DNA of 52,108 bases from Balneolaceae bacterium (GTDB lineage Bacteria; Bacteroidota; Rhodothermia; Balneolales; Balneolaceae): the NCBI GenBank assembly GCA_020832415.1, contig JAFIES010000148.1, positions 1-52,108 on the forward strand, written 5' to 3'. Positions 11,230 through 29,113 of this stretch are shown piece after piece (position 1 is the first letter of the stretch; each line of letters starts with the position of its first letter). A model generated the notes under the pieces. It had not been told where the DNA came from, made no database searches, and saw nothing but the letters and a program-made list of their open reading frames with translations. The translations under genes and the position numbers were made by a program.

Positions 11230-13650
11230 ATGAGATATAAAATACTTCTTTTTTTGATGCTGACATTTTCGAGCGGTCAGCTTTTTTCGCAGGGGATACC
11301 TGATGAGATTACACTTTCCGGTACAATCACAGAGCAGGGCAGCCAGCGCCCGTTGCAGGGAGCTACCATCTATGTAGAAGAACTGGAGCGGGGAACAGCG
11401 GCTGATGAAGATGGATTTTACACCATTACCTTGCCGCCCGGCACCTACTCCATTCGGTTTCAGTTTCTTGGAATGAGAACCAAAACTGTGCAGGTTGAGC
11501 TGCGAGAATCTCAGCAGCTTGATGCAGAACTGGCAGAACTTGAAATGGGCCTTGATGAAATTATTGTACAAGGAACCGGTTTTTGGGACAATTTGAGAGG
11601 TGCCGTTACCGGTGTTGAAGTTGTTACAATTCGGGACCTTGAGCAGTTGCCGCAACTAATGGGTGAGGTGGATGTTATCCAGTCACTTACGATGCTCCCC
11701 GGGGTTCAGACTGTTGGTGAAGGAGCGTCAGGTTTTAATATACGGGGAGGGCGCGAAGATCAAAATCTTGTGATGATGCATGGTGCTCCGCTTTTTAATT
11801 CGTCACATGTTCTTGGACTTTTTTCGGTCTTTAACCCCGACGCAACCGATAGTTATGCTTTGTATAAAGGCCACATGCCTGAACGATACGGCGGGCGATT
11901 GTCATCCGTTCTTGACGTATCAATGAGAAACGGATCATTTGAAGACTATTCTTTTGGCGGTGGTTTGGGGCTCTATTCGGGAAGGCTCATCGCTGAGGGG
12001 CCCATTATTAAAAACAGAACATCGTTTCTAATTGCAGGCCGGGGGGCTGATTCCGGAATTGTCTTCAATCTTGCGGGCAAAAACCGTGATCTGGCGAGAA
12101 CCTCTCTCCCGCTTGAAATTTATAACAGCACTGCCAGATTTTATGATGGAAACGCAACATTAACACATCGGATAAATAACAATCACAGTTTGGCATTGTC
12201 GTTTTATGGCAGTTACGATTTGTTTCAGTACTCTGATGAGTTTGGTTACTCCTGGAATACAAGAATTGCAAGCCTGAACTGGACAGGAACTTTTTCTGAA
12301 AACCTCTTTTCTGATTTTTCGGCAGTTACCAATTCTTATCGCAGTAACTGGTTTACACCCTCCGGTCCTGATGCATTTAAATTGGGTACCGGCATACGTT
12401 ACTTAAATCTCAAAGAAACGATTACGTATACCGGTTTTGGGAGGGCAGCAATTTATGCCGGTGCTGAATGGATTCGTTATTCCAGTGATGATGAAACCAT
12501 AGAGCCCTTCAATGAGCTGTCTGCTGTAGATTTCAGCCAAGTCAACAAAGATACAGGGCGGGAAATGGCAATTTTTGCGGGTAATGAAATTGATCTGACC
12601 GACCGATTGCTCGTACAGGCGGGTGTGAGGTTTTCATTCTACAATCAGCTCGTGCCGGGAACCGAATACAGATACAGCGATGATCAGCCACGATCCGTCT
12701 CATCAATTACCGACTCAACACAATTTTCTTCCCGTGAAAAAATGGTGAGTTACAGCGGGTTTGAACCCCGGCTTTCATCACGCCTCATATTAACTGACAA
12801 CAGCTCCGTGAAACTGAGTTACAACCGAACACGGCAATATATTCATCAAATTTCCAACAGTGCTTCACCTACACCGGCTGATATCTGGCAGATGAGCACC
12901 CGCCACCTGCCGCCTCAAAAAGCACACAATTATTCAATTGGATATTATCAAAACATTTTCGGACAAAATCTGGAAACATCGGTTGAATTTTATTACAGAA
13001 ACATAGAAAACCTTGTTGAATATATTGACTTTGCCGATCTGTTTTTGAACAGCCAAATTGAAACAGAACTGATTACAGGCCGTGGCAGAAATTTTGGCAG
13101 CGAACTCTCCGTACGTGCAACCGGCGGCAGGTGGACCGGATGGATCTCATATTCCTACAGCCGATCGTTTGTGCAAGTGAAAAGTGAATTTCCCGAATCT
13201 CAAATAAACAGTGGAGAGTGGTACCCTTCCAGTCACGATCAGCCCCATCACCTCAACCTTATTGCCGTTAGAAACATGGGTGAGAACAGTGCATTTTCAT
13301 TCAATTTTACATGGAATACAGGCCGCCCATTTACAGCTATCAGCTCAAACTACCTTGATGGAAGTACCACTGTACCCGTATTTTCTGACAGAAATGAACT
13401 CAGGATTCCGGATTACATACGCCTTGATATATCTTTCACCATTGCAGATAACATTTGGAAAAACAGAACCGTAAATCCGGACAGGCGTATTTCCGACAGT
13501 GCCAACTTTACTCTTTACAATATCCTGGGTCGCAAAAATGCTTTCTCCGTTTTTTATCAAAGAAGGCCTTCTGCTTCGGTGCCGGCATCCTACAAGCTTT
13601 CCGTATTGGGTGCGGTAATACCATCATTCACCTATAATTTTAACTTTTAA
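11230..13650 (+). CDS. TonB-dependent outer-membrane receptor with carboxypeptidase-regulatory-like domain
   Basis: An 806-residue receptor. Residues 1-21 are a signal peptide ending near LFSQG. Residues 27-100 form a carboxypeptidase-regulatory-like beta sandwich (GTITEQGSQRPLQGATIYV, then DGFYTITLPPGTY). The plug follows (about 110-230), with FNIRGGREDQNLVMMHGAPLFN characteristic of Bacteroidota FecA/CirA-like receptors. The rest is a beta-barrel ending in an aromatic residue (FTYNFNF). It should import a ligand across the outer membrane using TonB-ExbBD energy. It is coupled, with an 8-base gap, to a DUF4249 lipoprotein, a pairing frequent in this phylum. Ligand unknown; an iron chelate or small organic is possible. 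Confidence 0.93.
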   Translation: MRYKILLFLMLTFSSGQLFSQGIPDEITLSGTITEQGSQRPLQGATIYVEELERGTAADEDGFYTITLPPGTYSIRFQFLGMRTKTVQVELRESQQLDAELAELEMGLDEIIVQGTGFWDNLRGAVTGVEVVTIRDLEQLPQLMGEVDVIQSLTMLPGVQTVGEGASGFNIRGGREDQNLVMMHGAPLFNSSHVLGLFSVFNPDATDSYALYKGHMPERYGGRLSSVLDVSMRNGSFEDYSFGGGLGLYSGRLIAEGPIIKNRTSFLIAGRGADSGIVFNLAGKNRDLARTSLPLEIYNSTARFYDGNATLTHRINNNHSLALSFYGSYDLFQYSDEFGYSWNTRIASLNWTGTFSENLFSDFSAVTNSYRSNWFTPSGPDAFKLGTGIRYLNLKETITYTGFGRAAIYAGAEWIRYSSDDETIEPFNELSAVDFSQVNKDTGREMAIFAGNEIDLTDRLLVQAGVRFSFYNQLVPGTEYRYSDDQPRSVSSITDSTQFSSREKMVSYSGFEPRLSSRLILTDNSSVKLSYNRTRQYIHQISNSASPTPADIWQMSTRHLPPQKAHNYSIGYYQNIFGQNLETSVEFYYRNIENLVEYIDFADLFLNSQIETELITGRGRNFGSELSVRATGGRWTGWISYSYSRSFVQVKSEFPESQINSGEWYPSSHDQPHHLNLIAVRNMGENSAFSFNFTWNTGRPFTAISSNYLDGSTTVPVFSDRNELRIPDYIRLDISFTIADNIWKNRTVNPDRRISDSANFTLYNILGRKNAFSVFYQRRPSASVPASYKLSVLGAVIPSFTYNFNF

Positions 13651-13658
13651 AACCCGGC

Positions 13659-14702
13659 ATGAGCCTCAGGCTGATCATACTCTCCATAGCTTTTTTAGCC
13701 GTTTTAGCAGGTTGTATCAATGAGATAGAATTTGATACCGAGCGCACAGAAGGACAAATTGTGGTAAGCGGAAGTATCTACGACAGACCCGGGCCCTATC
13801 AGCTTGAATTGGGTATAACCACACTTGAATCAACCATTCCCATTCCGCTTTCCGGTGCCCGGATAACACTGTTTTCAGGTGATGGAAAATCTGAACGATA
13901 CAAAGAGACAGGTGACGGATTATACGAGCTGCCCGGCAGCGTTGTGACCGGATCACGCGGGGAAACATATCATATAGAAATTTTACTGGCCAATGGAGCC
14001 ATCTACCAATCCATACCTGAAACCATTCCGACTGTGCACAGCCGTGATTCTACATATATTGAATTGGAAAACAAACAGGAACAAACAGCAACAGGAGGTT
14101 TCCGGGAAGTTCCAATAATCTCTGTTTATACAGATACTCATATCCCGGAATCATCTGAGCCTCTCTATATTCACTGGAGTGTTTACAGCAAATATTCATT
14201 CCGCGAACGAACCCCAAGCAGTCCTTTGGCTCCCCCGCCAAATACCTGTTATGTAACCACTGACCCGGTTCCACAGGCCATTATTTTATTTTCAACCGAA
14301 AATCCCGGAAGCCGGAATATTGAGCAACAACTTATGGCACAAAAACATATTGTTTCACAAGAGTTTTACCGCAGGCACTATTTCAATGTAATCTCAAAAT
14401 CTGTGACGGAACGAAGGTACAATTATTGGCAGCAGGTTGATGAAATAATTAATCAGACAGGAACCATATTTGACTCTGCTCCGGCAACACCAAAAGGGAA
14501 CTTGTTCAATCCAAATGATGACCAAGATCAGGTATTTGGATATTTTGAGGCCGTGGCCATTGATACATCACGTGCATTTGTTACAAGAGGCGATCTTCCG
14601 TTTTTCGTTTCCAATCCATGTTCCGGCTTCAATCAACCCCCTGCCTGCGATAACTGTTTGCTTATTGAAAACAGCACACTTGAACGGCCATTTTATTTTT
14701 AA
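13659..14702 (+). CDS. DUF4249 family lipoprotein
   Basis: A 347-residue lipoprotein with hydrophobic residues 4-17 and lipobox LAGC (Cys19). The N-terminal half is beta-rich with the pattern of DUF4249: GQIVVSGSIYDRPGPY, then SGARITLFSGDGKSERYKETGDGLYELPG. A Cys-rich end (NPCSGFNQPPACDNCLLIE) closes the protein. The family is almost confined to Bacteroidota-like bacteria and nearly always follows a TonB receptor, as here, so it is thought to be a surface partner of that receptor. Biochemical role is unproven. It is the last gene of the two-gene operon. Confidence 0.88.
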   Translation: MSLRLIILSIAFLAVLAGCINEIEFDTERTEGQIVVSGSIYDRPGPYQLELGITTLESTIPIPLSGARITLFSGDGKSERYKETGDGLYELPGSVVTGSRGETYHIEILLANGAIYQSIPETIPTVHSRDSTYIELENKQEQTATGGFREVPIISVYTDTHIPESSEPLYIHWSVYSKYSFRERTPSSPLAPPPNTCYVTTDPVPQAIILFSTENPGSRNIEQQLMAQKHIVSQEFYRRHYFNVISKSVTERRYNYWQQVDEIINQTGTIFDSAPATPKGNLFNPNDDQDQVFGYFEAVAIDTSRAFVTRGDLPFFVSNPCSGFNQPPACDNCLLIENSTLERPFYF

Positions 14703-16235: not shown

Positions 16236-17219
16236 ATGAAATTCCAAAAAACCGGATATCACGGGCTCTATTTTCCTGAACTTGGCATCAGCCTGGATGG
16301 ATATCACCCGAAAGCAGCGTACACTTTTGTGAGCCACGCCCATGCAGATCATATGCCTCGCAACAAATCTACACGGGCGTATGCCAGCAAGCCCACATTG
16401 GAGCTGATGAAACTTCGGGGGTTCCGGGGTAAAGAAAATCCAATAGCATTCGGCGAGCCTGTAGAGACCGACAACTGCAGAATAACTCTTTACCCGGCCG
16501 GGCATATCCTCGGATCAGCAATGATTTACATTGAATCAGATTCCGGCACACTTCTCTACACCGGAGATTATCGCACACCTCCATCACCCGCTTCAGAAGG
16601 GTTTGAAGCTCCCGATCATGCTGATTTTCTTATCACGGAGGCTACTTTTGGCCTTCCGATTTACCGATGGAAACCGTATGAAGAGCTCACTTTTCAGATA
16701 CAATCATTCGCTAAAGAGTCACTGGAAGCGGGATATACCCCAATCTTTTTGGCGTACAATCTGGGTAAAGCACAGGAGGTGATGCATCTCGTGGCGCCGC
16801 TCGATCATCCGGTTATGATACACGGCGCCGGGTATAAGCTCTGTTCTGTGTATGATAATTATGGAATCGAACTCGGTAATTACTCTGCTTACGACAGAGA
16901 AACCTGTGAGGGAAAAATCTTGATTGCTCCGTCATCGGCACTTTCAAACGGGTTTGCATCCAATCTGAGAAAAACACGCGTCGCTTACTGCTCAGGCTGG
17001 GCGGCCAATGAATCGCGCCGCACTCAGCTCACGGTTGATAAACTGATTCCCATTTCTGACCATCTCGATTTTTTTGAGCTGATAGCGTTCTGCAAAAAAC
17101 TAAACCCGAAAAAGGTTTACATCACACATACTCCCAATCCTGCGGTTGTTCAGCATTACCTCGATCTCGAAAACATCGATAGTGCACATCTTGAAATGGA
17201 AGCAGAACCTGAGGATTAA
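16236..17219 (+). CDS. DNA-ligase-associated metallo-beta-lactamase-fold exonuclease
   Basis: A 327-residue beta-CASP/SNM1-like nuclease. FVSHAHADH gives the HxHxDH zinc motif (His34, His36, Asp38, His39), PAGHILGSAM supplies His90, YTGDYR supplies Asp111, and PISDHLDF near the C-terminus supplies the last His. Order and size fit the ligase-associated exonuclease family (TIGR04122-type), which processes DNA ends in partnership with an ATP-dependent ligase. That ligase follows after 4 bases, so the two are surely co-transcribed. The helicase and metallophosphoesterase that often complete this four-gene module are absent from the window. Confidence 0.9.
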   Translation: MKFQKTGYHGLYFPELGISLDGYHPKAAYTFVSHAHADHMPRNKSTRAYASKPTLELMKLRGFRGKENPIAFGEPVETDNCRITLYPAGHILGSAMIYIESDSGTLLYTGDYRTPPSPASEGFEAPDHADFLITEATFGLPIYRWKPYEELTFQIQSFAKESLEAGYTPIFLAYNLGKAQEVMHLVAPLDHPVMIHGAGYKLCSVYDNYGIELGNYSAYDRETCEGKILIAPSSALSNGFASNLRKTRVAYCSGWAANESRRTQLTVDKLIPISDHLDFFELIAFCKKLNPKKVYITHTPNPAVVQHYLDLENIDSAHLEMEAEPED

Positions 17220-17223
17220 ATAC

Positions 17224-18930
17224 ATGAAAGCCACATTTATCCGGTTTTGTGAAGTGATTCAGTCCATCAGGCAAACACGCGGAAATAACGCGAAAATCAG
17301 GCTTTTTGCGGATTACATGGCGGGGCTGGAGTCCGATGAAGAGTTAAATCTTGCAGCACAGTTTATTGGTGAAGGTGCATTCCCGGAACTTTCAGGAAAG
17401 CGAACCTCGGTTGGCAGCCGAACGAGTGGATTAGCCGCTGCTGAATTTTGTGAGATTGATTATGATAAGGTTTTTAAACCGTGCCGTACAGCAACCGGAA
17501 GCAGCTCTGAAACCATCGAACGGCTGATGGAGAACATCCCCGCTGCAGTCGAAAAAAGGAACCCGGTAAAACTCACGCTTGCAGAGGTACATCAAATTGC
17601 TGAAAATCTTTATCAGGCTTCCGGCCGGGATGATAAAAAAGCCATTTTGTGGAGTGCCTGGGAGAGGATGTCGGCCATCGAGATTAAATATTTTATACGG
17701 ATTTTAGGCCAGGGCTCACTGCGGATTGGGTTTGAAACGCGCAGTGTCATCGCATCCATTGCAAAAGCGTTTGAAAGCGACCGCGAATCGGTACGGTATG
17801 CCCATATGATAACCGGAAGCCTGGGCAGAACAGCCATTCTTGCCAGAGAAAACCGCCTTGATGAAGCTCGCTTCAAGCTGTTTCACCCCCTTTCGTTTAT
17901 GCTCGCCTCCCCTATCGAAAGCAGATCGGTGGAACAGATTGAGGAGTATGTGGCAGAGGAGAAGTTCGACGGCATGCGGGCACAGCTTCATACAGATGGG
18001 AAAAAGGTTAAAATCTTCTCGCGCGATCTCAATGATATCACACGATCCTTTCCTGATATCGTGAATTTTTTCACTAAACGGGAACTGCCGCCTGCTGTTT
18101 TTGATGGTGAAATCTGTGTCTATAAAGATGATATCATCCTGCCATTTCAGCTGCTCCAGAAGCGAATGGGCATAAAAAAGCCCGGAAAGAAAATTCTCAA
18201 TCAGTACCCGGTTCTATTTATTGCTTATGATCTGCTTTACACGAATAACAGGCCCATTTTCGACCTGAAATTAACCGATCGAAGAGCCCTACTTGAGCAG
18301 ATCACAGGGCAGTTCAATGTGCCGATTGCTTCTCAAAACAGCCTGACCGGTACCGATGATGTTGAAACACTCTACAACCGGGCGCTTGAACATGGAAATG
18401 AAGGGTTGGTGCTTAAACTAAAAGAGAGTGCTTATGAGTATGGGCAGCGCCGGAAATCGTGGCTGAAGGTTAAAAAACCGGGCGGATCATTCGATACAGT
18501 GATGATGTATGCCCATGCTGGCAGCGGCAAACGCGGCGGCACCTACTCTGATTTTACTCTTGGCATATCTGTGAAAGATGATGAGCGCTACGAAGAAGAG
18601 TTCATCCCCATTGGCAAAGCGTATGGCGGTTACAGCGATGACGAGCTGAAAAAAATGAACCAAAAAATTAAAGAGCTTACAGTTGAACGGTACGGACCAA
18701 CGCTGGGACTACTCCCGAAACTTGTCATTGAAATTGAGTTTGATGAGATCCAGATCAACAAACGAACCAAAGCCGGTTATACACTTCGCTTCCCCAGATT
18801 TCGGGCAATCCGATGGGATTTAGGCCCGAATGATGTAAACACCCTTAAAGATGTGGAGGCATATTATCAACAATCACTGGAAAAAGAGCGCTTGCCACAG
18901 CATAAAAACCCCTCCTTTACATTTGGATAG
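17224..18930 (+). CDS. ATP-dependent DNA ligase (exonuclease-linked class)
   Basis: A 568-residue ATP-dependent ligase. Residues 1-200 form the N-terminal DNA-binding region, followed by the nucleotidyltransferase domain with motif I EEKFDGMR (adenylated Lys247), motif III FDGEICVY, motif IV EGLVLKL and motif V WLKVKK. An OB-fold follows to the end. It seals nicks in repair, separately from the NAD-dependent replicative ligase. The start at 17224 (MKATFIRF) is preferred to an in-frame ATG at 17146 because the latter would overlap the exonuclease gene by 74 bases and gives no extra domain. The exonuclease partner lies directly upstream. Confidence 0.93.
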   Translation: MKATFIRFCEVIQSIRQTRGNNAKIRLFADYMAGLESDEELNLAAQFIGEGAFPELSGKRTSVGSRTSGLAAAEFCEIDYDKVFKPCRTATGSSSETIERLMENIPAAVEKRNPVKLTLAEVHQIAENLYQASGRDDKKAILWSAWERMSAIEIKYFIRILGQGSLRIGFETRSVIASIAKAFESDRESVRYAHMITGSLGRTAILARENRLDEARFKLFHPLSFMLASPIESRSVEQIEEYVAEEKFDGMRAQLHTDGKKVKIFSRDLNDITRSFPDIVNFFTKRELPPAVFDGEICVYKDDIILPFQLLQKRMGIKKPGKKILNQYPVLFIAYDLLYTNNRPIFDLKLTDRRALLEQITGQFNVPIASQNSLTGTDDVETLYNRALEHGNEGLVLKLKESAYEYGQRRKSWLKVKKPGGSFDTVMMYAHAGSGKRGGTYSDFTLGISVKDDERYEEEFIPIGKAYGGYSDDELKKMNQKIKELTVERYGPTLGLLPKLVIEIEFDEIQINKRTKAGYTLRFPRFRAIRWDLGPNDVNTLKDVEAYYQQSLEKERLPQHKNPSFTFG

Positions 18931-19017: not shown

Positions 19018-19140
19018 TAACAAACGTGAGTTTGATTTAACATATAGAAAGAATCGTCAGTTAGAGCGCATCCCGATGCAGTTCAATATGACGGGTTCAG
19101 TCATATTGTTCATTTTTATATCGAACTCAAGTTAACAAAG
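19018..19140. repeat. small inverted-repeat element (MITE-like), copy 1
   Basis: A non-coding block filling most of the gap 18931-19199. The ends are inverted: the left end reads AACGTGAGTTTGATTTAACA and the right end, read on the minus strand, AACTTGAGTTCGATATAAAA. Inside are GAATCGTCAGTTAGAGCGCA (19051-19070) and TCCCGATGCAGTTCAAT, both repeated at the right edge of the window, the second there in inverted orientation. A perfect hairpin CAATATGAC-7-GTCATATTG occupies 19084-19108. No ORF. It resembles a non-autonomous mobile element and may also act as a terminator between the ligase gene and the sigma gene. Confidence 0.65.
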
Positions 19141-19174
19141 ATCATTTCATTCAGCTACACACCGCCGTTAACGT

Positions 19175-19182
19175 TAATTTTG
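19175..19182 (+). promoter_or_regulatory. possible Bacteroidota-type -7 promoter element
   Basis: TAATTTTG matches the TAnnTTTG -7 consensus of the Bacteroidota housekeeping sigma factor. It lies 17 bases before the ATG of the ECF sigma gene. I do not see a convincing -33 TTTG at the proper distance, so this is only a candidate. Confidence 0.25.
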
Positions 19183-19199
19183 CTCAGCTTCCGCGTTTT

Positions 19200-19769
19200 A
19201 TGCTTCAAAACGATGATCAAATTTTACTGGCAAAACTCAGGTCCGGATCGGATGATGCCTTTGAATTAATTTATCATCAATATCACAAACGCCTCTACAG
19301 TTTAGCATTTAAGTATTTGAAAAGTAAAGAGCTCTCGGAAGATGCTGTACACGATGTATTTGTAAAACTCTGGGACAACCGGCAATCGGTAAACAGCGAT
19401 ATTAAAAATTATCTCTTCTCATCGGTGAGAAATCATGTTCTGAATATGATCAGAAACAATAAGAGAAAAATTCTGAAACAGATTCAGTTTGAACAGCAAA
19501 AGATAAAGCCCGTGAACCGTACAGAAGAGGTGATTCTCTACTCAGAGTACAGGAAAATCCTGATGCGCGGCCTTTCGGAATTGCCCCAGGGCAAACGCGA
19601 TATCTTTCAGATGAAATCCGAAAAAGAGATGACGAACAGTGAAATTGCCCAAAAAATGGGAATTACTGTGAATACGGTTAAATCTCAGTATTACCACGCT
19701 TCGAAATTTATTAAAGAGTACTTAAGTGAGCATGCAGATATACCCCATCAAAAAGCTGCAAAGAGCTAA
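19200..19769 (+). CDS. ECF RNA polymerase sigma factor of the FecI/SusC-locus type
   Basis: A 189-residue ECF sigma factor. Region 2 spans about residues 20-90 (FELIYHQYHKRLYSLAFKYLKSKELSEDAVHDVFVKLWD), and region 4 spans about 120-175 with the helix-turn-helix MTNSEIAQKMGITVNTVKSQYYHA. The VHDVFVKLW signature and size fit the Bacteroidota sigma group encoded beside FecR and SusC. It is followed after 76 bases by its likely anti-sigma factor FecR and then the STN-type SusC, the standard trans-envelope signalling set. It should switch on the susCD operon when the receptor is occupied. Confidence 0.93.
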   Translation: MLQNDDQILLAKLRSGSDDAFELIYHQYHKRLYSLAFKYLKSKELSEDAVHDVFVKLWDNRQSVNSDIKNYLFSSVRNHVLNMIRNNKRKILKQIQFEQQKIKPVNRTEEVILYSEYRKILMRGLSELPQGKRDIFQMKSEKEMTNSEIAQKMGITVNTVKSQYYHASKFIKEYLSEHADIPHQKAAKS

Positions 19770-19845
19770 TCAATTTGCCCACTTTTCCTGAATTCGTATA
19801 ATTTTTTCAACAATTCAAGATTTTTCACCACACTTTTTAATAGTT

Positions 19846-20934
19846 GTGGTGTCTTACTTTGTAACAGCTAAAAAATTACGCTTTTTGGATAAAGAACTGC
19901 TACAGAAATTTTTCAGAAATCAATGCACCACTGCAGAGATGAAGCAGGTGTACAACTGGTTTAAAACCGGTGAGGGTAAAGAGTATTTTGAGGATCATCT
20001 CGACAGGGACATCCGCCGCTATTCGAATAATGACAATCTCCTGCTTACACCCGATGTTCCATCTGCAAAAATTTTGTCAAAAATTAAACAAACCCGTCGC
20101 AGCCAAAGCAGGTATCAGCCGCGGAATCAGTCGGGTTGGAAAGTTAAAATTGCAGTAGCTGCCATCATCTGTATCGCATTATTATCAGGGACGTTCATCT
20201 ACCAGGGAAGCACTACAGCTCATTCAATGGATAATGAAATTACATATCGCACCTTTAGTACCCTGGATGAACAACACCGGATTATCTCACTCTCTGATGG
20301 CTCTCAGATTCGCCTGAATTCAAATTCATCGCTCCGGGTGCCCGAAAATTTCATCTCTGCCAAACGCCATGTTATTCTCAGTGGTGAAGCCTGGTTTAAA
20401 ATAGTAAGCGATCAGGAAAAACCATTTTCTGTTCAGGCTGATGATGCTACCATACACGTTTTGGGTACCGAATTTAACATCAAAATGGACGAAGCTGCCG
20501 GAAATATTCAGATCGCTGTATCGGAAGGTGTGGTAGCATTCGAGAGTGGAAATCAAATTGATAACGAAGGAATTCGTGCTACTCTATCAAGAAACAATTT
20601 TGCGCTTTATTATCCCGGCACCGAGGAAATCATCATAGAAAACACCTCCGTCATCAACTACCTGAGCTGGATTGATGGCACACTTTTCTTTTACGATGAG
20701 CCCCTTTGGCAGGTGAGTCGAACATTAGCACGGCTTTATAATTACGAATTCAATTTTCTTGATGATAATGTGAAGCAACTCACACTGAGTGCCGATCTCA
20801 CCAGGGATGAACTCCCTGAACTACTGAGTATTATTTCGCAAACACTGAATATCGATTACGTGATGGACAGTTCTGCGAAAGAAATAACCTGGACTTCAAC
20901 TAAAAACCAACCATTAACAAACCACAGCGAATGA
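19846..20934 (+). CDS. FecR-type anti-sigma factor
   Basis: A 362-residue single-pass membrane protein. Residues 1-95 are the cytoplasmic sigma-binding part, 99-119 the transmembrane helix (VKIAVAAIICIALLSGTFIY), about 150-235 the periplasmic FecR domain (SLSDGSQIRLNSNSSLRVP, GEAWFKI, VLGTEFNIK), and 285-345 the DUF4974 domain that contacts the receptor STN domain. It holds the sigma factor in check until SusC signals. The listed start is a GTG without a clear ribosome-binding site; a later TTG is possible. Its stop overlaps the susC ATG, so the two are translationally coupled. Confidence 0.92.
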   Translation: MVSYFVTAKKLRFLDKELLQKFFRNQCTTAEMKQVYNWFKTGEGKEYFEDHLDRDIRRYSNNDNLLLTPDVPSAKILSKIKQTRRSQSRYQPRNQSGWKVKIAVAAIICIALLSGTFIYQGSTTAHSMDNEITYRTFSTLDEQHRIISLSDGSQIRLNSNSSLRVPENFISAKRHVILSGEAWFKIVSDQEKPFSVQADDATIHVLGTEFNIKMDEAAGNIQIAVSEGVVAFESGNQIDNEGIRATLSRNNFALYYPGTEEIIIENTSVINYLSWIDGTLFFYDEPLWQVSRTLARLYNYEFNFLDDNVKQLTLSADLTRDELPELLSIISQTLNIDYVMDSSAKEITWTSTKNQPLTNHSE

Positions 20935-23900
20935 TGAGCAACGTTACTAAAACCAAATCTCTATGGTTACGATCATGGATTTGCCTTGCCGTTTCCGGAT
21001 TTCTGTTTGCCTTGCCAACTGCCTTATTGGCCGGCAGTGCAAATGCACCGAACAGCATGGTAATTTCATATCAGGATAGCCAGCTTGCACAAATCTCTGC
21101 ACTTCATGTAACAGAGAAAGACTCAAAACAACCGAAAGTCTCTCTTGAGGTTGAAAATATGCCGCTAATTAACGTTCTGCACCGCCTTGCAGATGAGTTG
21201 AACGTGGATATTTCAATGAATTCTCATACCATGCAAAATCTGCTTGTAAGTTATAGCGGAACTGATCAGAATTTTTATGATGTGATTGATGAGCTATTGA
21301 GTGAAACTAATCTTGAAGTTACTCTTAGTGATGATCAAAAAGCACTGATCATTTTTGAGAGAAAAAATCAACCAAATGAAACTCTTGATCTCTTTCAAGG
21401 AACAATTGGTGGACGAGTAACAGATTCAAGTACAGGTGACCCTCTGCCTGGTGCCAATCTCTTTTTTCCTCAACTTGAGATGGGAACTGCAACAGATGCA
21501 GACGGATATTATACCATTTCTGACATTCCTGAAGGAACATACACAGTAAGAGTAAATTACGTGGGTTACAGACAAACTGAACAATCCCTTGAAATTACAA
21601 GTGGTGTTGAGCAGGAATTTAATTTTCAGCTTCGCCCCGACGTTTTAGGCCTTGATCAGGTAGTTGTAACAGCTCGTGGTGCCAGTTCAGCCCGACGGGA
21701 AATTGGATCTTCCATTTCAAGCGTTTCTACAGAAAGGTTACAAGATGCTCCAATCTCTAACATGTCACAACTACTTCAGGGGCGTGTTGCAGGTGCCCGT
21801 GTTCAGCTTGGCGGTGGTAAATCAGGCCAGGGTAGTACTATAGTGCTGAGAGGTGCGGCCAGTATTTCACAAAATAATGAACCAATTATATATGTCGATG
21901 GAGTTAGGATAGATAACTCTCGAGCCTCTGGAATTGAAACAACAACTGCTGGTGTAAGTTGGTCAGGGCTGGACGATATTAACCCGGAAGATATTGATCG
22001 TATGGAAATTATCCGTGGCGCATCGGCAGCAACCCTTTATGGATCGGAAGCATCAGCTGGTGTAATTCAAATATTCACAAAACGAGGCACTGAGGGAGCA
22101 CCTCAATTTACATATAGATCTCAGGTAGGAATACTTGACACTCCAAGAGACTGGTGGCAAGTCTCTGCATATAGTGACTGGTTTTATGATGAAATGGTTC
22201 AAACAGGTACAACCAACACACAATACCTCGGAGTAAGAGGTGGGATAGACAATATTAGATACTACGCATCTGGAAGCATGCGTAATGAAACTGGAATACT
22301 ACCTGAAAGTGCTGAAGATTATCTGAGCTTCAGATTGAATCTCGATTTTGACCCAAGAGATGATTTAGATATCAGTGTAAATACTGCATTTTCTGATCGT
22401 TCTGTTCAACATGTGCCTGATGCTAATAATACTCGTGGATATACTATTAACGGTATGATTGGCGGACCTGCAGGTAACTGGGGAACTCCAACTCAAGATT
22501 TAACAGCAATTCAGACATTTCAGGAAGGTAATCGGTTTACATCATCGGTACTCTTTAGCCACAATCCAGTTGGGTTTTTTAGCCATCGATTAACTCTTGG
22601 CTATGAAAGTCGTAATGAAGATCAAACTCAATTCTTTCCTTTTGGAGCTATCAGTAACCTGAATCAGGGTTTCAAAAGTAATTATCGAAGAGGTGTAACC
22701 AATAAAAACATTGACTATGTAGCAACTCTGAGATTTCAACCCACAGATTGGCTAAGAACAACTACGTCAGGTGGTTTTCAATATTTCGACAGGTCCGTAG
22801 GTTCAAGCTCTGCTATAGGAAATGACTTTCCAATGTTGGGGCTTTCCACTGTAAGTGCTACAGTAGATCAAAGTGCTGCAGAATCACGATTCGAAGAAAA
22901 GAGTGCCGGATTCTTCATTGAGCAACAATTCGGGTTTAACGAAAGGTTATATGTAACTCTCGGTGCAAGAGCTGATGGTCATAGCGCCTTTGGTGAAGAT
23001 GTAGATTATGTTCTATATCCTAAAATTGATCTATCATACATGCTTTCAGAAAACTCATTCTGGAATGACAATTGGGGTACACTTCGCCTGAGAGCCGCTT
23101 ACGGAACTGCTGGCCAACAACCTGGAGCATTTTCTGCTGTAAGAACTTGGTCTCCTGTTTCCGCGGTTGGTGCTCAGCCCGCTGTTACACCTGGAAACCT
23201 TGGAAATCCAGATCTAAAGGCAGAGCGATCTCATGAGTACGAAGCTGGATTTGATGCAAGTATTTTTAATGATCGATTAAATATTGATTTTAATTACTTC
23301 TACCAGCGCACAGAAGATGCCCTCTACCAATTCCGATACCCACCTTCGCAAGGCTTTCTATCCACCCAGCTTGAAAATGTGGGCGAAATCAAAAATCAAG
23401 GAATTGAACTTTCACTACAAGGTTTGGTATTCGAAACAGGTAATTTTGCCTGGAATGCCCTTGTAAACTTTAGTACAAATGAGAATGAAGTAGTTTCTCT
23501 TGGTGGTGGAGCCCCAGTACAGGTTCAATGGAGACAATTCATTCAGGAAGGCTATTCAGTTGGTGGCTTCTTTGGAGATAGATACATTGAAGTTGATGGG
23601 GTAACTGACCTCGCCAGCAACCTGATTGGAGACCAAGATGGGTGGGATTACATTGGTCCTGCCATCCCAACTAGAACTGCACAAATTGGTTCTGATTTTG
23701 ATATCAGCAATTTCAATATCCGAATTCTGTTTGATCATCAAAGCGGTGGTTATCTCCAGAGTAGTACTCTTAGATGGTTATGGCAACCTAATCAAGTAGT
23801 ACCTGAAGGTGGCCAAGGTGTAACCACAGCAGGCCCTACTGGTCTTGCATGTCGTGAACCGGCTAATGACATCATTCGACTTAATTGCGAAAGAGGGTCA

Positions 23901-24182
23901 ACTTTAACTCAAGGAGACTTTGTGTTTCCTTCAGACTTCTGGAAGCTTAGAGAGCTTTCAGTATCATATCGGGTACCGGTTGATGTAATCGATAGGGTTG
24001 GACTCAGAAGTGCTACGCTTACCTTTTCTGGAAGAAATATCTGGAGAAGCCAAGAATATTCTGGTCTTGAAGCCGAAGCAAATTATCGGGGTGATCTCTC
24101 TGATTCTGCAATCAGAAAGCAGATATTCTTCGATACACCAATACCTCGTCAGTTCATTCTCGGTGTAAATATTGGATTCTGA
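20931..24182 (+). CDS. SusC/RagA-family TonB-dependent transporter with STN signalling domain
   Basis: A 1083-residue outer-membrane transporter. After a signal peptide (about 1-34) comes an STN domain (about 65-140, beginning VSLEVENMPLINVLHRLADEL), which binds the FecR periplasmic domain. A carboxypeptidase-regulatory-like domain follows (about 155-225, GRVTDSSTGDPLPGANLFF), then the plug (VVVTARGAS; IIYVDGVRIDN, the SusC signature) and a barrel ending NIGF. It imports a ligand delivered by SusD and reports occupancy to the sigma/anti-sigma pair. Codon use turns more A/T-ending after about 21.4 kb than in fecR. The ATG overlaps the fecR stop. The ligand is not deducible; a glycan or peptide is likely. 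Confidence 0.94.
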   Translation: MMSNVTKTKSLWLRSWICLAVSGFLFALPTALLAGSANAPNSMVISYQDSQLAQISALHVTEKDSKQPKVSLEVENMPLINVLHRLADELNVDISMNSHTMQNLLVSYSGTDQNFYDVIDELLSETNLEVTLSDDQKALIIFERKNQPNETLDLFQGTIGGRVTDSSTGDPLPGANLFFPQLEMGTATDADGYYTISDIPEGTYTVRVNYVGYRQTEQSLEITSGVEQEFNFQLRPDVLGLDQVVVTARGASSARREIGSSISSVSTERLQDAPISNMSQLLQGRVAGARVQLGGGKSGQGSTIVLRGAASISQNNEPIIYVDGVRIDNSRASGIETTTAGVSWSGLDDINPEDIDRMEIIRGASAATLYGSEASAGVIQIFTKRGTEGAPQFTYRSQVGILDTPRDWWQVSAYSDWFYDEMVQTGTTNTQYLGVRGGIDNIRYYASGSMRNETGILPESAEDYLSFRLNLDFDPRDDLDISVNTAFSDRSVQHVPDANNTRGYTINGMIGGPAGNWGTPTQDLTAIQTFQEGNRFTSSVLFSHNPVGFFSHRLTLGYESRNEDQTQFFPFGAISNLNQGFKSNYRRGVTNKNIDYVATLRFQPTDWLRTTTSGGFQYFDRSVGSSSAIGNDFPMLGLSTVSATVDQSAAESRFEEKSAGFFIEQQFGFNERLYVTLGARADGHSAFGEDVDYVLYPKIDLSYMLSENSFWNDNWGTLRLRAAYGTAGQQPGAFSAVRTWSPVSAVGAQPAVTPGNLGNPDLKAERSHEYEAGFDASIFNDRLNIDFNYFYQRTEDALYQFRYPPSQGFLSTQLENVGEIKNQGIELSLQGLVFETGNFAWNALVNFSTNENEVVSLGGGAPVQVQWRQFIQEGYSVGGFFGDRYIEVDGVTDLASNLIGDQDGWDYIGPAIPTRTAQIGSDFDISNFNIRILFDHQSGGYLQSSTLRWLWQPNQVVPEGGQGVTTAGPTGLACREPANDIIRLNCERGSTLTQGDFVFPSDFWKLRELSVSYRVPVDVIDRVGLRSATLTFSGRNIWRSQEYSGLEAEANYRGDLSDSAIRKQIFFDTPIPRQFILGVNIGF

Positions 24183-24217
24183 TCTAAACCAACTGAAGGT
24201 ATAAACTATTTAAAAAC

Positions 24218-25567
24218 ATGAATATCATGAAACTAAACAAACACAATAATAAAAGCTTATTCACCCTTACCGGGTGGAGTGGAAATATTCTTGCAATGCT
24301 CACTGCAGTATTTTTGCTCACAGCTTGCGACCTCGGAGTAGAAAATCCTGGTCAAATCGATGATTCTGACCTTGATACTCCTGCGGCCATTACACCACTC
24401 GTAAATGGTGTAAAAGGTGATTTCGGTTATGCAACTACAATTCCCGGTGGAGGTGGTCTCTATACAGTAACCGGTGTGTTAACAGATGAACTAGTACATG
24501 TGGGAAGCTGGATTCCAATTCGACTTGCAAGCTTTGGTGTATCCATTAATTCTGAACCGGAAAATCAAAGCCGGTGGGGATATGCTCAGAGAGCACGATG
24601 GGTTGCCGAAGATGCCATTCGAAGAATTGGTAATATTGTTGATAACCCAGAGAATGATCCAAATGTTGGAATGGTAACCCTTTACGCAGGTTTCTCTAAT
24701 CGTGTGATGGGAGATACATTTTGTGAAGCAGTTATTGATGGTGGTCCATTGGAAAATCACTTAGTATTTACAGAACGTGCTGTAGATTTTTTCACAGACG
24801 CTATTACAATTGCCCAGAATGTAGGAGATGGAGAAATGTTAACAGCAGCATATGGCGGTCGGGCTCAGGCTCATATTATGTTGGGCAATTGGGATGACGC
24901 CTTAAACGATGCTTCCAATGTTTCTACCGATTTTGTATTCAATCAGGCACATTCCGACAATGCCGCTCGGGAACATAATGGTGTACATAACTGGACAACA
25001 AGAGGCGACAATGGAGATCAAATGTCTGTTTGGGGAACTCCATTTGCCGATTGGGGAACCGACCGTAGCGGGATTATGGAAAGTGAAGGAGATCCTAGAG
25101 TTCAGTATGAGGTGCAGATAGACTCAGAAGGGGAAATGGTTACTAATCAGCTTGACAGACCTCTTTGGTACTCTTATAAATTCGAGACCAGAAACTCTCC
25201 AATTCCAATCGTTAAAGGAACCGAAATGAGACTGATTGAAGCAGAAGCTGCACTTGCACAAAATCAGGATGTATCTACAGCTATTAATCGAATAAATGAA
25301 GTTCGTGAACATCACGGACTTGATACCTTTAATGCTGATGATTACACCCTTGAAAGTGCATGGGTTTTGTTGATGAAAGAGAAAGGAATTGAGCTTTGGC
25401 TTGAAGGACGACGTATTGCTGATCTTCGAAGATGGGCAAATACACCAGGTAGTGTTCCTTTTGATGTAATTCGCGAAGACAACAATAACCCATTACCAGT
25501 TCTTGAAGTAGAGGCGATGTGCCTTGAAGTCAGTTCAGATGAAATAAATTCGAATCCAAATATTTAG
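24218..25567 (+). CDS. SusD/RagB-family surface lipoprotein
   Basis: A 449-residue SusD-like protein with lipobox LTAC (Cys37), so lipid-anchored at the surface as the lid of the SusC transporter. Helical TPR-like segments are visible (about 195-225, AHIMLGNWDDALNDASNV, and 335-375, EMRLIEAEAALAQNQDVSTAINRINEVREHHGL), and the C-terminal EKGIELWLEGRRIADLRRW is a signature of SusD/RagB proteins. It begins 35 bases after susC and is followed by a strong terminator, so it closes the signalling/transport operon. Like susC, its codons are more A/T-ending than in neighbouring enzyme genes. Ligand unknown. Confidence 0.94.
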   Translation: MNIMKLNKHNNKSLFTLTGWSGNILAMLTAVFLLTACDLGVENPGQIDDSDLDTPAAITPLVNGVKGDFGYATTIPGGGGLYTVTGVLTDELVHVGSWIPIRLASFGVSINSEPENQSRWGYAQRARWVAEDAIRRIGNIVDNPENDPNVGMVTLYAGFSNRVMGDTFCEAVIDGGPLENHLVFTERAVDFFTDAITIAQNVGDGEMLTAAYGGRAQAHIMLGNWDDALNDASNVSTDFVFNQAHSDNAAREHNGVHNWTTRGDNGDQMSVWGTPFADWGTDRSGIMESEGDPRVQYEVQIDSEGEMVTNQLDRPLWYSYKFETRNSPIPIVKGTEMRLIEAEAALAQNQDVSTAINRINEVREHHGLDTFNADDYTLESAWVLLMKEKGIELWLEGRRIADLRRWANTPGSVPFDVIREDNNNPLPVLEVEAMCLEVSSDEINSNPNI

Positions 25568-25588
25568 AATTCTTAGCTATTTCTTTCT

Positions 25589-25625
25589 AAGCCGGTTCGA
25601 TTTATTTCGGGCCGGCTTTTTTTAT
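25589..25625 (+). terminator. rho-independent terminator after susD
   Basis: AAGCCGG and CCGGCTT form a 7-base-pair GC-rich stem around a 15-16-base loop, followed directly by a run of T. It starts 22 bases after the susD stop and separates the sigma-fecR-susCD transcript from the VOC/Gfo genes downstream. Confidence 0.8.
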
Positions 25626-25702
25626 TTTCTGATATCTTTTTTAACGATTTCATAGATTTACAATTCGTACTTTCGTTTTTCCCGAATTAAAATCCAATCA
25701 GT

Positions 25703-26746
25703 TTGTCACAAATTATTACCGGAATACAGCAAGTAGGAATAGGCGTAACAGATGTAAACATAGCGTGGGAATGGTACAGAACCATGTTTGGCACCGATGT
25801 TCCCGTGTTTGATGATGTAGCCGAAGCCAAACTAATGACCCGATACACCGGCAACGAAGTACATTCACGCAGAGCTGTATTGGCACTCAATATGAATGGC
25901 GGTGGTGGCTTTGAGATCTGGCAGTTTAAAAGCCGTGAGCCGGAGCACTGCACGTTTGATCATACCCCGGGCGATTTGGGGATTAATGCTGTAAAAATTA
26001 AATGCAGGAATATAACCGAAGCTCACTCGAAATTACTTTCGGGTAATACTGATTCTGTCAGCCAACTATTTACACTGCCCAACGGAGAACAATCATTTCA
26101 GGTACGCGATCCCTACAACAACTTATTTCAGCTGGTAAAAGGTGACTCCTGGTTTCAAAAACACAATAGCACAACCGGTGGCGTTTGTGGTGCAATGATA
26201 GGTGTAAGTGACATTGAAACTGCCCTTCCACTTTACACAGATGCACTCGGTTTCAGAGAAACCATTTATGATGAAACCGGCACCTTCACCGACCTTGATC
26301 CTGAATACAAGTTCAGGCGCATTTTACTCAGAAAAAAGCAACGCGATGAAGGAGCATTCAGCCGCCTCTTTGGCCATATTGACATTGAACTGATCCAGGT
26401 TTTTGGCCGGAAACCACAAAAGATCTATCATGAGCGCTTCTGGGGTGATCCCGGATTTATTCATATCTGCTTTGATGTAAATAACATGGATTTATTAAAA
26501 GAAAAATGCCGTGAACTGGGTTACCATTTCACCGTCGACAGCGCATCCACTTTTGATATGGGTGAAGCTGCCGGGCGATTTTCATATATTGAGGATCCGG
26601 ACGGTACCCTAATAGAATTTGTACAGGCACACAAGTTGCCTATTTTAAAAAAGTGGGGATGGTACATCAACCTGAAAAAGAGAAAACATCAAAAACCCCT
26701 GCCCGACTGGATGCTCAAAACCATGAGTTTTAACAGGGTTAAATAG
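25703..26746 (+). CDS. two-domain VOC (glyoxalase/dioxygenase-fold) protein
   Basis: A 347-residue protein with two vicinal-oxygen-chelate modules. The first (about 6-145) begins ITGIQQVGIGVTDVNIAWEWY and ends DPYNNLFQLV; the second (about 160-310) begins CGAMIGVSDIETALPLYTDALGF and ends IEDPDGTLIEFVQ, the paired beta-alpha-beta pattern of glyoxalase/extradiol dioxygenase folds. Metal ligands are not obvious in the first module, while the second has HICFDVNN and an IEF glutamate. Reaction unknown; an isomerase or hydratase acting on a sugar or keto acid is possible given its neighbours. Start is a TTG at 25703. A Gfo/Idh/MocA dehydrogenase follows after 27 bases, so the two form an operon. 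Confidence 0.75.
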   Translation: MSQIITGIQQVGIGVTDVNIAWEWYRTMFGTDVPVFDDVAEAKLMTRYTGNEVHSRRAVLALNMNGGGGFEIWQFKSREPEHCTFDHTPGDLGINAVKIKCRNITEAHSKLLSGNTDSVSQLFTLPNGEQSFQVRDPYNNLFQLVKGDSWFQKHNSTTGGVCGAMIGVSDIETALPLYTDALGFRETIYDETGTFTDLDPEYKFRRILLRKKQRDEGAFSRLFGHIDIELIQVFGRKPQKIYHERFWGDPGFIHICFDVNNMDLLKEKCRELGYHFTVDSASTFDMGEAAGRFSYIEDPDGTLIEFVQAHKLPILKKWGWYINLKKRKHQKPLPDWMLKTMSFNRVK

Positions 26747-26773
26747 ACCATAACATTTCAAATAAATCAAATT

Positions 26774-27856
26774 ATGAGTGATAAAAAAATAAATGTACTC
26801 GTGGTAGGGTGCGGAAATATGGGAACCTCGCATGCCCGTGCCTACCATAAACTGGATGACTTTAACATTGTAGGCCTTGTGGACCGCGGCTCAAAAAGCA
26901 GTGAACGCCTTGCCAAAGAAGTTGGTGAACCTGCTACATTCAGCAACTACGAAGAAGCTCTAAGCTCCACAAAACCGGATGCTGTTTGTATAAGCACCTA
27001 TCCGGGCACACACGCAGAATTCTCCATCAAAGCGCTGGAAGCGGGTGCGCATGTTTTCGTTGAGAAGCCCATTGCTGAAACCGTGGAAGATGCAGAAGCG
27101 ATTGTTGCAGCTGCTGAAAAAGCCGGCAAAAAAGTAGTTGTAGGCTATATTTTACGTCATCATCCCGGCTGGAAAAAATTCATTGAACACGCGCAACAAC
27201 TGGGCAAACCACTGGTAATGCGAATGAACCTGAATCAGCAGAGTGATGGTGAAGAGTGGGGCGTTCATAAAAATATTATGGAGGCGATGTCGCCCATTGT
27301 GGATTGCGGCGTGCACTATGTGGATGTGATGTGTCAAATGACCAAAGCCACGCCGATCAGCGTTCATGCCATTGGCGCAAGACTTTCTGATGAAATTGAC
27401 TCCAACCAGTACAACTACGGCCAGCTTCAGGTTCGCTTTGATGACGGCTCTGTTGGCTGGTACGAATCCGGCTGGGGACCCATGATCAGCGAGCAGGCTT
27501 ACTTCGTAAAAGATATTATGGGGCCAAAAGGAAGTGTAAGTATCCGCAAAAACACTTTTGATCTGCCAAGAGGCTCATCAGCAGATATTGGTGAACACAC
27601 CACGGTAAAACAGTTTCACCTGCACTCATCCGAGGTCAACGAAGATGGCAAGCTTGTTAAAGATGACCAGATTCTTGATGCACCGGAACAACCCGATCAT
27701 GATGAACTTTGCCTGTTTGAACAGGAGTATTTCCTGAAAGCCATCAAGGATGATTTAGATGTCTCCGATCACCTTCGGGAAGTGGTACACACTCTCCAGA
27801 TTGTTCTGGCCAGTGATGAATCCGTGAAAACAGGGAAATCGGTCGAACTGAAGTAG
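26774..27856 (+). CDS. Gfo/Idh/MocA-family NAD(P)-dependent dehydrogenase
   Basis: A 360-residue oxidoreductase. Residues 7-20 hold the Rossmann motif NVLVVGCGNMGTSH. EKPI (97-100) supplies catalytic Lys98, and DCGVHYVD (Asp177, His181) is the conserved DxGxH motif of the family, which oxidises or reduces sugars, inositols and related polyols. The C-terminal half is the alpha/beta dimer domain. It has no signal peptide, so it is cytoplasmic. It is co-transcribed with the VOC protein just downstream of a SusCD locus, which suggests catabolism of the imported ligand, but the substrate cannot be read from the sequence. Confidence 0.9.
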   Translation: MSDKKINVLVVGCGNMGTSHARAYHKLDDFNIVGLVDRGSKSSERLAKEVGEPATFSNYEEALSSTKPDAVCISTYPGTHAEFSIKALEAGAHVFVEKPIAETVEDAEAIVAAAEKAGKKVVVGYILRHHPGWKKFIEHAQQLGKPLVMRMNLNQQSDGEEWGVHKNIMEAMSPIVDCGVHYVDVMCQMTKATPISVHAIGARLSDEIDSNQYNYGQLQVRFDDGSVGWYESGWGPMISEQAYFVKDIMGPKGSVSIRKNTFDLPRGSSADIGEHTTVKQFHLHSSEVNEDGKLVKDDQILDAPEQPDHDELCLFEQEYFLKAIKDDLDVSDHLREVVHTLQIVLASDESVKTGKSVELK

Positions 27857-27861
27857 ACATC

Positions 27862-29043
27862 TTAGTAAAGAAATCCGAATAGCCAGAGGGGAATTCTCCG
27901 TCCTCTCCCCTCTTCTATTTTATCAGCTGCAATATACGCGTTCGGTACACCGCGAATCTGTTCATCGGTTTTCGAAGGGCCACCTACTTCGAATGTCCAT
28001 GTTTTATCCACCAGAAAATCAGCAAAACGTGATGTAGTTACAGAATACTTCACCTGTAATTGATTGTAGAAAAAGGTCTCGCGAAGATTGCCTGTTGATG
28101 GACCTTCATCAGAAAACAAATACAACAGGTTTGGGTTATGTAAATATATTTTTTCGGGTTTCTGTAAATAGCTTACGCCCTGAGCATGGCTGCGAAGTAA
28201 CGCCAATACACCTGCACGTTCAAGTAAATCCAATAATCTTAGTATTGTATTGCGTGGAATGTCTAACTTTTTGGACAGTTTCGAAATATTAGGCACAAAA
28301 GGAACTGACTGGCTTAGTACATAAATCAGCTTTTTCATATTCCGAACTGTAGATGCATTAAGATCTTCATATAGAGTAATATCCACATCCAGCACCAGAT
28401 TTGTGGACTCCCTTAGTTTTTGATGGTAAGTCCGCAAACCTTCTTTAAAAAAGGGATAGTAACCCAAACGATTATATTCCTGAAAAGCTTTTAGTACATC
28501 TATTCTGTCCGATATTTGATTTGCAAGCGCCTGGTGTTCTTTAATTATATCTTCCAATGATAATGATTGAATTTCCAATCCTTTTTGCAAGTGAATGAAT
28601 TCTCTAAATGAAAGTCCCGGCAAAGTATAAACAGCAGCGCGGCGAGAGAGGTCTTCCCTACCTTTTCTCAATTCAAGAATTGAAGATCCGGTGACAATTA
28701 ATTGTATATCAGGATAATTGTCATACGCATTCTTAAGATCTCTTGCCCATGACTTATATCTATGAACTTCGTCCAGATAAAAAGAGCGAAACCCTTCATC
28801 GTACAATTTTTCAATTTCAGTGATAAGGCGATTTGCTTCAAAATAGATATCATCCAAACTAAGATATACACCGCTTTTTACCTGCTTCATTCGTTGTAAT
28901 AACAGGGTGGTTTTACCGGCACCACGCTGACCCAGAATCAAGATAAAACGCTCTTTCCAATCGATTTCATCAATCAAAAATCGTTTAAATACTAAAGAAA
29001 CCGCAGCGGACTTCTTATTTGAAAGATCAATAAGCTTGTTCAT
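27862..29043 (-). CDS. AAA+ ATPase of the AAA_14/DUF4143 family
   Basis: A 393-residue ATPase. Walker A is GQRGAGKT (about residues 38-45), Walker B is FYLDEVHRY (about 87-95), and sensor 1 lies in LIVTGSSIL. A winged-helix segment near 255-290 (LSKKLDIPRNTILRLLDLLERAGVL) precedes the DUF4143 C-terminal domain. Such genes are widespread as scattered, often horizontally moved single copies, and their cellular role is unknown. The ATG at 29043 is preferred to a TTG ten codons upstream. The 70 bases before the gene carry three copies of a 10-base box. It is convergent with the dehydrogenase gene, only 5 bases apart. Confidence 0.85.
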   Translation of the reverse strand: MNKLIDLSNKKSAAVSLVFKRFLIDEIDWKERFILILGQRGAGKTTLLLQRMKQVKSGVYLSLDDIYFEANRLITEIEKLYDEGFRSFYLDEVHRYKSWARDLKNAYDNYPDIQLIVTGSSILELRKGREDLSRRAAVYTLPGLSFREFIHLQKGLEIQSLSLEDIIKEHQALANQISDRIDVLKAFQEYNRLGYYPFFKEGLRTYHQKLRESTNLVLDVDITLYEDLNASTVRNMKKLIYVLSQSVPFVPNISKLSKKLDIPRNTILRLLDLLERAGVLALLRSHAQGVSYLQKPEKIYLHNPNLLYLFSDEGPSTGNLRETFFYNQLQVKYSVTTSRFADFLVDKTWTFEVGGPSKTDEQIRGVPNAYIAADKIEEGRGRRIPLWLFGFLY

Positions 29044-29057
29044 ATTTTGCTTTTTCA

Positions 29058-29113
29058 ATTTAACAAATTTCAATTTTGTTAAATGAATATAGCAATTTTA
29101 TTGTTTGTTAAAT
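29058..29113 (-). promoter_or_regulatory. triple TTTGTTAAAT box array before the AAA/DUF4143 gene
   Basis: ATTTAACAAA at 29058-29067 and TTTGTTAAAT at 29075-29084 form a perfect inverted repeat with a 7-base spacer. A third exact TTTGTTAAAT lies at 29104-29113. The array directly precedes the ATG of the ATPase gene, so it is a good operator candidate, perhaps for the winged-helix part of the ATPase itself. Function is inferred. Confidence 0.5.

Follow-up and report, generated by a model that had tools for sequence, protein, structure and literature searches.

We analysed a stretch of 52,108 nucleotides (the window), a complete contig (C18) of the genome, here G000, of a salt-loving bacterium of the family Balneolaceae. 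It holds a locus that encodes an extracytoplasmic function (ECF) sigma factor, a FecR-type anti-sigma factor, the uptake pair SusC and SusD (SusCD), a vicinal oxygen chelate (VOC) protein and a Gfo/Idh/MocA oxidoreductase (Gfo). The susC gene is a naturally occurring hybrid, with a signalling front end that goes with the local sigma and FecR genes and a remainder that is that of another transporter. The features are listed below; the position between the ligase and VOC genes is called the slot.

17224–18930, plus strand: ATP-dependent DNA ligase, bordering the slot on the left (in relatives without SusCD the VOC gene comes directly next)
19200–19769, plus strand: ECF sigma factor, sensor module (TIGR02985, 140 bits, cut-off 126)
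19846–20934, plus strand: FecR-type anti-sigma factor, sensor module (PF04773 and PF16344, FecR_C/DUF4974)
20931–24182, plus strand: SusC (TIGR04056 above cut-off; PF13715, PF07715, PF00593)
20931–21283, plus strand: 5′ part of susC, with the signal peptide and the beginning of the STN domain, staying with the sensor (change point and end of the BLAST match)
21284–21650, plus strand: remaining STN, linker and N-terminal extension (NTE; CarbopepD_reg_2, PF13715, residues 159–246) of susC, putative seam region
21651–24182, plus strand: TonB box, plug and barrel of susC, transporter module of type A (81–85% identical to the SusC of genome G046)
24218–25567, plus strand: SusD lipoprotein, transporter module of type A (PF07980)
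25589–25618, plus strand: intrinsic terminator, a 12-pair hairpin with a T-run; right junction, common to the type B relatives
25703–26746, plus strand: VOC protein of two domains (PF00903 in its C-terminal half), resident downstream of the slot
26774–27856, plus strand: Gfo, resident gene (PF01408)

The six genes are real by their open reading frames (ORFs) and by Pfam/NCBIfam matches, at the positions given in an earlier note made from the letters of this DNA. The sigma and FecR genes are adjacent; judging by orthologues, FecR likely starts at a TTG near 19885. SusD carries a lipobox-like LLTAC (by eye). The surface-signalling circuit of sigma factor, FecR and SusC proposed in that note holds by the sigma and FecR families and a sub-threshold STN match, and the terminator it had placed between SusCD and VOC was found. 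It had also noted the lack of glycoside hydrolases; indeed, the 16 window proteins scanned for domain families include none, nor any glycan-degrading enzyme of the kind that, beside SusCD, marks a polysaccharide utilization locus (PUL).

The STN domain of the window SusC scored 19.0 bits against Pfam (E 0.0012; cut-off 28.4), and orthologues scored 20.5 and 21.7 bits. A model of SusC residues 1–245 built from eight sequences gave beta-alpha-beta, beta-alpha-beta-beta at residues 69–143 (pLDDT 55–71) and, at higher confidence, the NTE at residues 157–240. In a Foldseek search with this model the NTE matched solved SusC NTE structures (9hfj, 6ytc), and no STN structure is named among the 50 PDB matches listed. 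The STN is thus a candidate that rests on the sub-threshold Pfam match, the predicted secondary structure and co-variation with FecR (see below). In the window SusC it is N-terminal to the NTE; in the available text of PMC7782687 the NTE is said to come before the STN, and its function is described as unknown. According to the available text of PMC9249621, the periplasmic part of FecR contacts the transporter's signalling domain, and an engineered PupBA chimera transports via its barrel and signals via its swapped signalling domain.

We compared the locus with those of other Balneolaceae, of which one is Rhodohalobacter halophilus JZ3C29 and others are metagenome-assembled. Against the nearest relative, the sister species G002, the DNA is 95.5% identical over 19132–21283, which spans sigma, FecR and the first 95–118 susC codons; homology is then absent and resumes at 25586, the lost 4.3 kb being the rest of susC and susD. 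The codon change point lies at SusC residue 95, where nucleotide identity falls from 97 to 45%. After 25586 identity is 89.4% across VOC and 95.8% over 26770–29100. In bins of 100 nt, VOC is mostly at 86–92%, the first 400 nt of Gfo at 89–91% and what follows at 94–96%, rising to 97–99% beyond ~27.8 kb; the sensor genes are mostly at 95–99%. Identity at fourfold-degenerate sites is 91% for sigma, 87% for FecR and 91% for SusC residues 1–95, and 66% for VOC and 76% for Gfo. Judging by the identity, which is lowered through VOC and on into Gfo, the imported tract may extend to about 27.2–27.8 kb. The whole profile is as expected for an imported tract that has a core without homology and a single homologous arm. 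GC content and GC at third codon positions (GC3) do not mark the exchanged tract, with the exception of a low GC3 in susD (28.9).

In the slot, G002, G025, G013 and G004 hold a SusC body and SusD of another type (type B), and the window SusC body is only 29–31% identical to these bodies. The window FecR is nevertheless 96–97% identical to that of G002 (77, 68 and 67% to those of G025, G004 and G013). The kin of the type A body lie elsewhere: it is 81–85% identical to the SusC of G046, a complete ORF of 982 amino acids that lacks an STN and has neither a sigma nor a FecR match alongside, and 83% identical to a contig-truncated SusC of G123, a genome of another genus. The SusD proteins are 73–75% identical to that of the window, and among 244 genomes of the class only these two come near it (75%); no other genome of the window's genus reaches E 1e-60. 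The FecR tree groups the window with G002 (support 100/99), and the SusC-body tree groups it with G046 (99).

Could the hybrid have arisen otherwise? The many paralogous loci per genome would fit duplication of entire loci without exchange, the SusC bodies diverging faster than the sensor. This has almost no chance of being correct, however, given a FecR identity of 97% beside a body identity of 31%, the abrupt loss of DNA homology within susC against the sister species, close kin of the body in another genus and orthologous barrels that are more conserved than FecR (G062/G065, G051/G033). There is a very slim chance that the hybrid is an artefact of assembly or binning: most genomes are drafts, and the slot of G002 is spread over three contigs, but both junctions are internal to the 52-kb contig, contig C106 of G002 runs continuously from sigma into the type B body, and the conflicts described below include few-contig genomes (G011, G051, G033). 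An invertase that shuffles several SusC bodies inside one genome would also give alternative bodies. Such phase-variable SusC/SusD shufflons exist in Bacteroides fragilis and B. thetaiotaomicron, according to the available text of PMC11852207, PMC4747536 and PMC12548429, and R. halophilus has an STN-less B-like SusCD next to a signalling SusCD. A shufflon is highly unlikely here, as type B SusD is absent elsewhere in G000 (best match 30%), a repeat scan of 20.8–26.2 kb gave only short imperfect repeats, none convincing, and no recombinase is among the 16 window proteins scanned.

In four Rhodohalobacter relatives of the same genus (G005, G015, G026, G006) the ligase is followed by VOC and Gfo without SusCD, with 89–285 bp between the ligase and VOC matches, and G010 and G017 have ligase–VOC. 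Sigma, FecR, SusC and SusD stand in front of VOC in the slot region of G000, G025, G013, G011 and G021 and, read over contig breaks, of G002 and G004. VOC is present in 56 of 92 family genomes, and Gfo occurs without VOC in five (G012, G014, G016, G019, G022). In eight genomes, the window's included, VOC is directly preceded by SusCD, at about 135–211 bp, and these SusCD are of three unrelated types. One of the eight, G123, is the only genome with SusCD of these types beside VOC among the 17 of other genera whose VOC surroundings were examined; its SusC, SusD and VOC are 83, 74 and 66% identical to those of the window. In other genera VOC is often beside nitroreductase- and TlpA-like genes (by eye, among the matches listed). 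Since VOC and VOC–Gfo occur without SusCD, SusCD occupies this position only occasionally, ahead of genes that are resident there. VOC and Gfo are its neighbours, not demonstrated partners.

This weakens the part of the earlier note that had counted the two enzymes into the circuit; it had itself named the pair's occurrence without SusCD as the first half of what would speak against it, and the four genomes above are such cases. That sigma, FecR, SusCD, VOC and Gfo form one system dedicated to the uptake and catabolism of a small sugar derivative or a polyol, as the note may be read, would agree with the short SusCD–VOC distance in eight genomes, including the A-type SusCD–VOC of G123, and with the similarity of Gfo to sugar and inositol dehydrogenases. 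We consider it unlikely, because the position is taken by three unrelated SusCD types, VOC and VOC–Gfo occur without SusCD, as Gfo does without VOC, and a terminator stands between SusCD and VOC–Gfo. Both recombination via conserved flanks and a loose functional tie are possible reasons for three SusCD types at VOC.

The VOC–Gfo gap is 27 nt. The N-terminal half of VOC scores just 18.2 bits against PF00903 (cut-off 20.6), and a structure model from four sequences was of unusable quality (pLDDT 48). Downstream of its type A SusCD, G123 has both VOC and a methylmalonyl-CoA-epimerase-like VOC gene; G046 has only the second of these. An AAA_14/DUF4143 ATPase (27862–29073) directly follows Gfo in the window; it is also in G002 and, with a different gene order, in G004, and was not found after Gfo in G025, a local indel. 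A metallo-beta-lactamase-fold protein and the ligase (16236–18930) adjoin in many members of the genus; the ligase of G003 and G021 is in inverted orientation and has a D-Ala-D-Ala-carboxypeptidase-like neighbour (by eye). A second uptake pair of the window (11230–14702) consists of a TonB-dependent receptor with NTE and a DUF4249 protein.

We then asked how general the separation inside susC is. Of 66 FecR matches six were left out (G039:C222, G035:C74, G053:C57, G068:C8, G016:C50, G010:C141), and six loci from another search were added, giving 66 annotated FecR loci. Seven without a SusC of at least 900 amino acids were excluded and the partial SusC of G002 was retained by hand, leaving 59 loci (37 of them, in the pair table, with a motif-based cut); exclusion of G060, G078 and G090 as not SusC-like left 56 loci, or 1540 pairs. 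Because locus pairs are not independent, Mantel tests were used. FecR identity correlated with that of the SusC N-terminus (rho 0.45, p 0.0005) and not with that of the body (0.01, p 0.38). Over 52 loci the body correlated with SusD (0.69); over 45, sigma correlated with FecR (0.64) and not with the body (0.03). Along SusC the correlation with FecR fell from 0.49 for the STN to 0.20 for the NTE, 0.04 for the plug and 0.00 for the barrel (55 loci), and within the genus alone (32 loci) it was 0.55 for the N-terminus and 0.16 for the body. As FecR tracks the N-terminus and not the body, and the body tracks SusD, we infer that two modules recombine inside susC.

Individual loci behave likewise. 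Among the 39 loci that have a FecR neighbour at 50% identity or more, 20 carry a SusC body less than 40% identical to that neighbour's, and the FecR and SusC-body trees disagree widely (the latter was made by a quick method, and several of its long branches were flagged). Loci G000:C79a and G013:C36 have FecR proteins 30% identical with bodies at 90% and SusD at 88%, and their downstream genes are similar by eye. The sensors of G000:C79b and G002:C198 are unrelated (FecR 31%), yet behind them 2377 nt are 99.1% identical; at the thresholds applied, neither sensor has an orthologue in the genome of the other. In G011 the FecR is near that of G021 and the body near those of G051 and G033. Change points fell at the TonB box (residues 225–260) in five comparisons, in the STN–NTE linker (147–165) in three and inside the STN in the window; a control pair of the same type (G002/G025) had none of these. 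The NTE domain would be the seam between the sensor and transporter modules. Farther away, in Bacteroidales, Proteiniphilum L134/L136 and L136/Tannerellaceae L139 have FecR proteins 76–77% and barrels 24–31% identical. We had also considered that type B spread recently between G021 and G025, but silent sites do not back this (body 40%, LIG 38%).

Two further sigma/FecR/SusC loci of the window's genome (L200 and L201, on G000:C79) are separated by ~20 kb that include Gfo-like, DUF1080-like, GMC-oxidoreductase-like and phosphatase-like genes (by eye). In R. halophilus (L105) and G023 (L104) a type B-like SusCD sits immediately beside sigma/FecR and a signalling SusCD of a third type, C; the B-like SusC is STN-less in the former and incomplete in the stretch examined in the latter. 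A donor–recipient tandem is a possible reading of this pairing.

Several observations weigh against an exchange of modules, or against its details. The N-terminus and body correlate at 0.09 with a Mantel p of 0.011, so this correlation is not strictly zero. In a wider Bacteroidota set (25 of 36 loci; L110–L116 were excluded because the family set already represents them, and L137, L142, L143 and L145 because their records are named Pseudomonas, Deltaproteobacteria or Emcibacter) FecR correlated with the STN at 0.46 and with the barrel at 0.27, the latter raised by near-identical orthologues. FecR evolves faster than barrels (60 vs 89% in G062/G065), so that pairs in which the body exceeds FecR prove little alone and were rejected as sole evidence. 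The C79b/C198 case, the most striking second one, sits on a contig that ends inside the body. An approximately unbiased test on G021/G001 gave p 0.084 for the body protein, which is not significant, and p 0.036 for DNA, and the genomes compared are mostly drafts or metagenome-assembled. Finally, the comparison of the window with G002 does not tell which of the two lineages imported the tract; the presence of type B in G025, G013 and G004 as in G002 favours a change on the window's lineage.

Taken together, the locus is probably a SusCD system for cell-surface signalling whose two evolutionary modules have been joined within susC by recombination. The sensor module (sigma, FecR and the STN of SusC) would be held together by parts that must fit physically; the transporter module, made up of SusD as the lid and of the TonB box, plug and barrel of SusC, would determine the ligand. 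Recombination between the window's lineage and the sister species would have swapped the transporter module (about 21.2 to 25.6 kb), the sensor genes and the terminator staying put. When a ligand binds the type A SusCD, the old STN would then pass the signal on to the FecR and sigma factor that were there before, and a new nutrient is therefore expected to drive an existing switch; the circuit of the window may well still work, with a new ligand. Given the contact between FecR and the transporter's signalling domain and the separable functions of PupBA described above, selection would keep the STN with FecR and free the barrel.

Through module exchange these bacteria apparently often connect an existing switch to a different nutrient. 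It is about an even call whether signalling SusC proteins across Bacteroidota are plug-in receptors, in which recombination around the NTE and TonB box keeps sigma–FecR–STN, swaps plug–barrel–SusD and so repeatedly rewires regulons, the NTE serving as an adaptor joint between many barrels and many STNs. This would offer a role for the NTE domain. SusCD substrates are often guessed from the regulator or from an orthologous neighbourhood; if exchange inside one gene is real, such transfer of substrates would fail in about half of the cases with a close FecR (the 20 of 39 above). The natural chimeras are also ready-made material for tests of the communication between barrel and STN.

At the level of titles and abstracts we found no report of natural exchange, pervasive or not, between STN and barrel in SusC. 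Work by Xu (2007) and Porter (2020) reportedly may touch on related SusC rearrangements, which limits a claim of novelty. The only paper found that brings together SusC, SusD, recombination and the STN domain is a structural study, and in its available text recombination is a cloning step.

Known systems share parts of this arrangement. The ragAB alleles of Porphyromonas gingivalis are, like the window's, an allelic, horizontally moving SusCD pair, and the RagA N-terminus (signal peptide and NTE) is highly conserved; in contrast to the putative STN of the window, the available text (PMC11817032) describes none there. The SusC/SusD shufflons, such as Tsr0667 of B. fragilis and the nutrient-receptor shufflons of B. 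thetaiotaomicron, place alternative SusC/SusD at one expression site as in the window, the latter under one transcription factor, but from the available accounts they are invertase-driven with the alternatives within one genome, of which the window gives no sign. In the fructan PUL of B. thetaiotaomicron 8736 (PMC5967196, as far as available), SusC and SusD diverge and the remaining locus is largely conserved, as here, and its transfer alters the substrate used; it differs in that SusC and SusD are still 49 and 39% identical. FecIRA and PupIRB have the same order of ECF sigma factor, FecR and TonB-dependent transducer and the same logic of FecR and signalling domain. That signalling and transport specificity are separable was already known from engineered PupA/PupB chimeras (PupBA in the available text of PMC9249621). 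The hybrid of the window would be the natural counterpart of that receptor, and the difference is that the hybrids here are natural, in a SusC with a SusD lid and over many loci.

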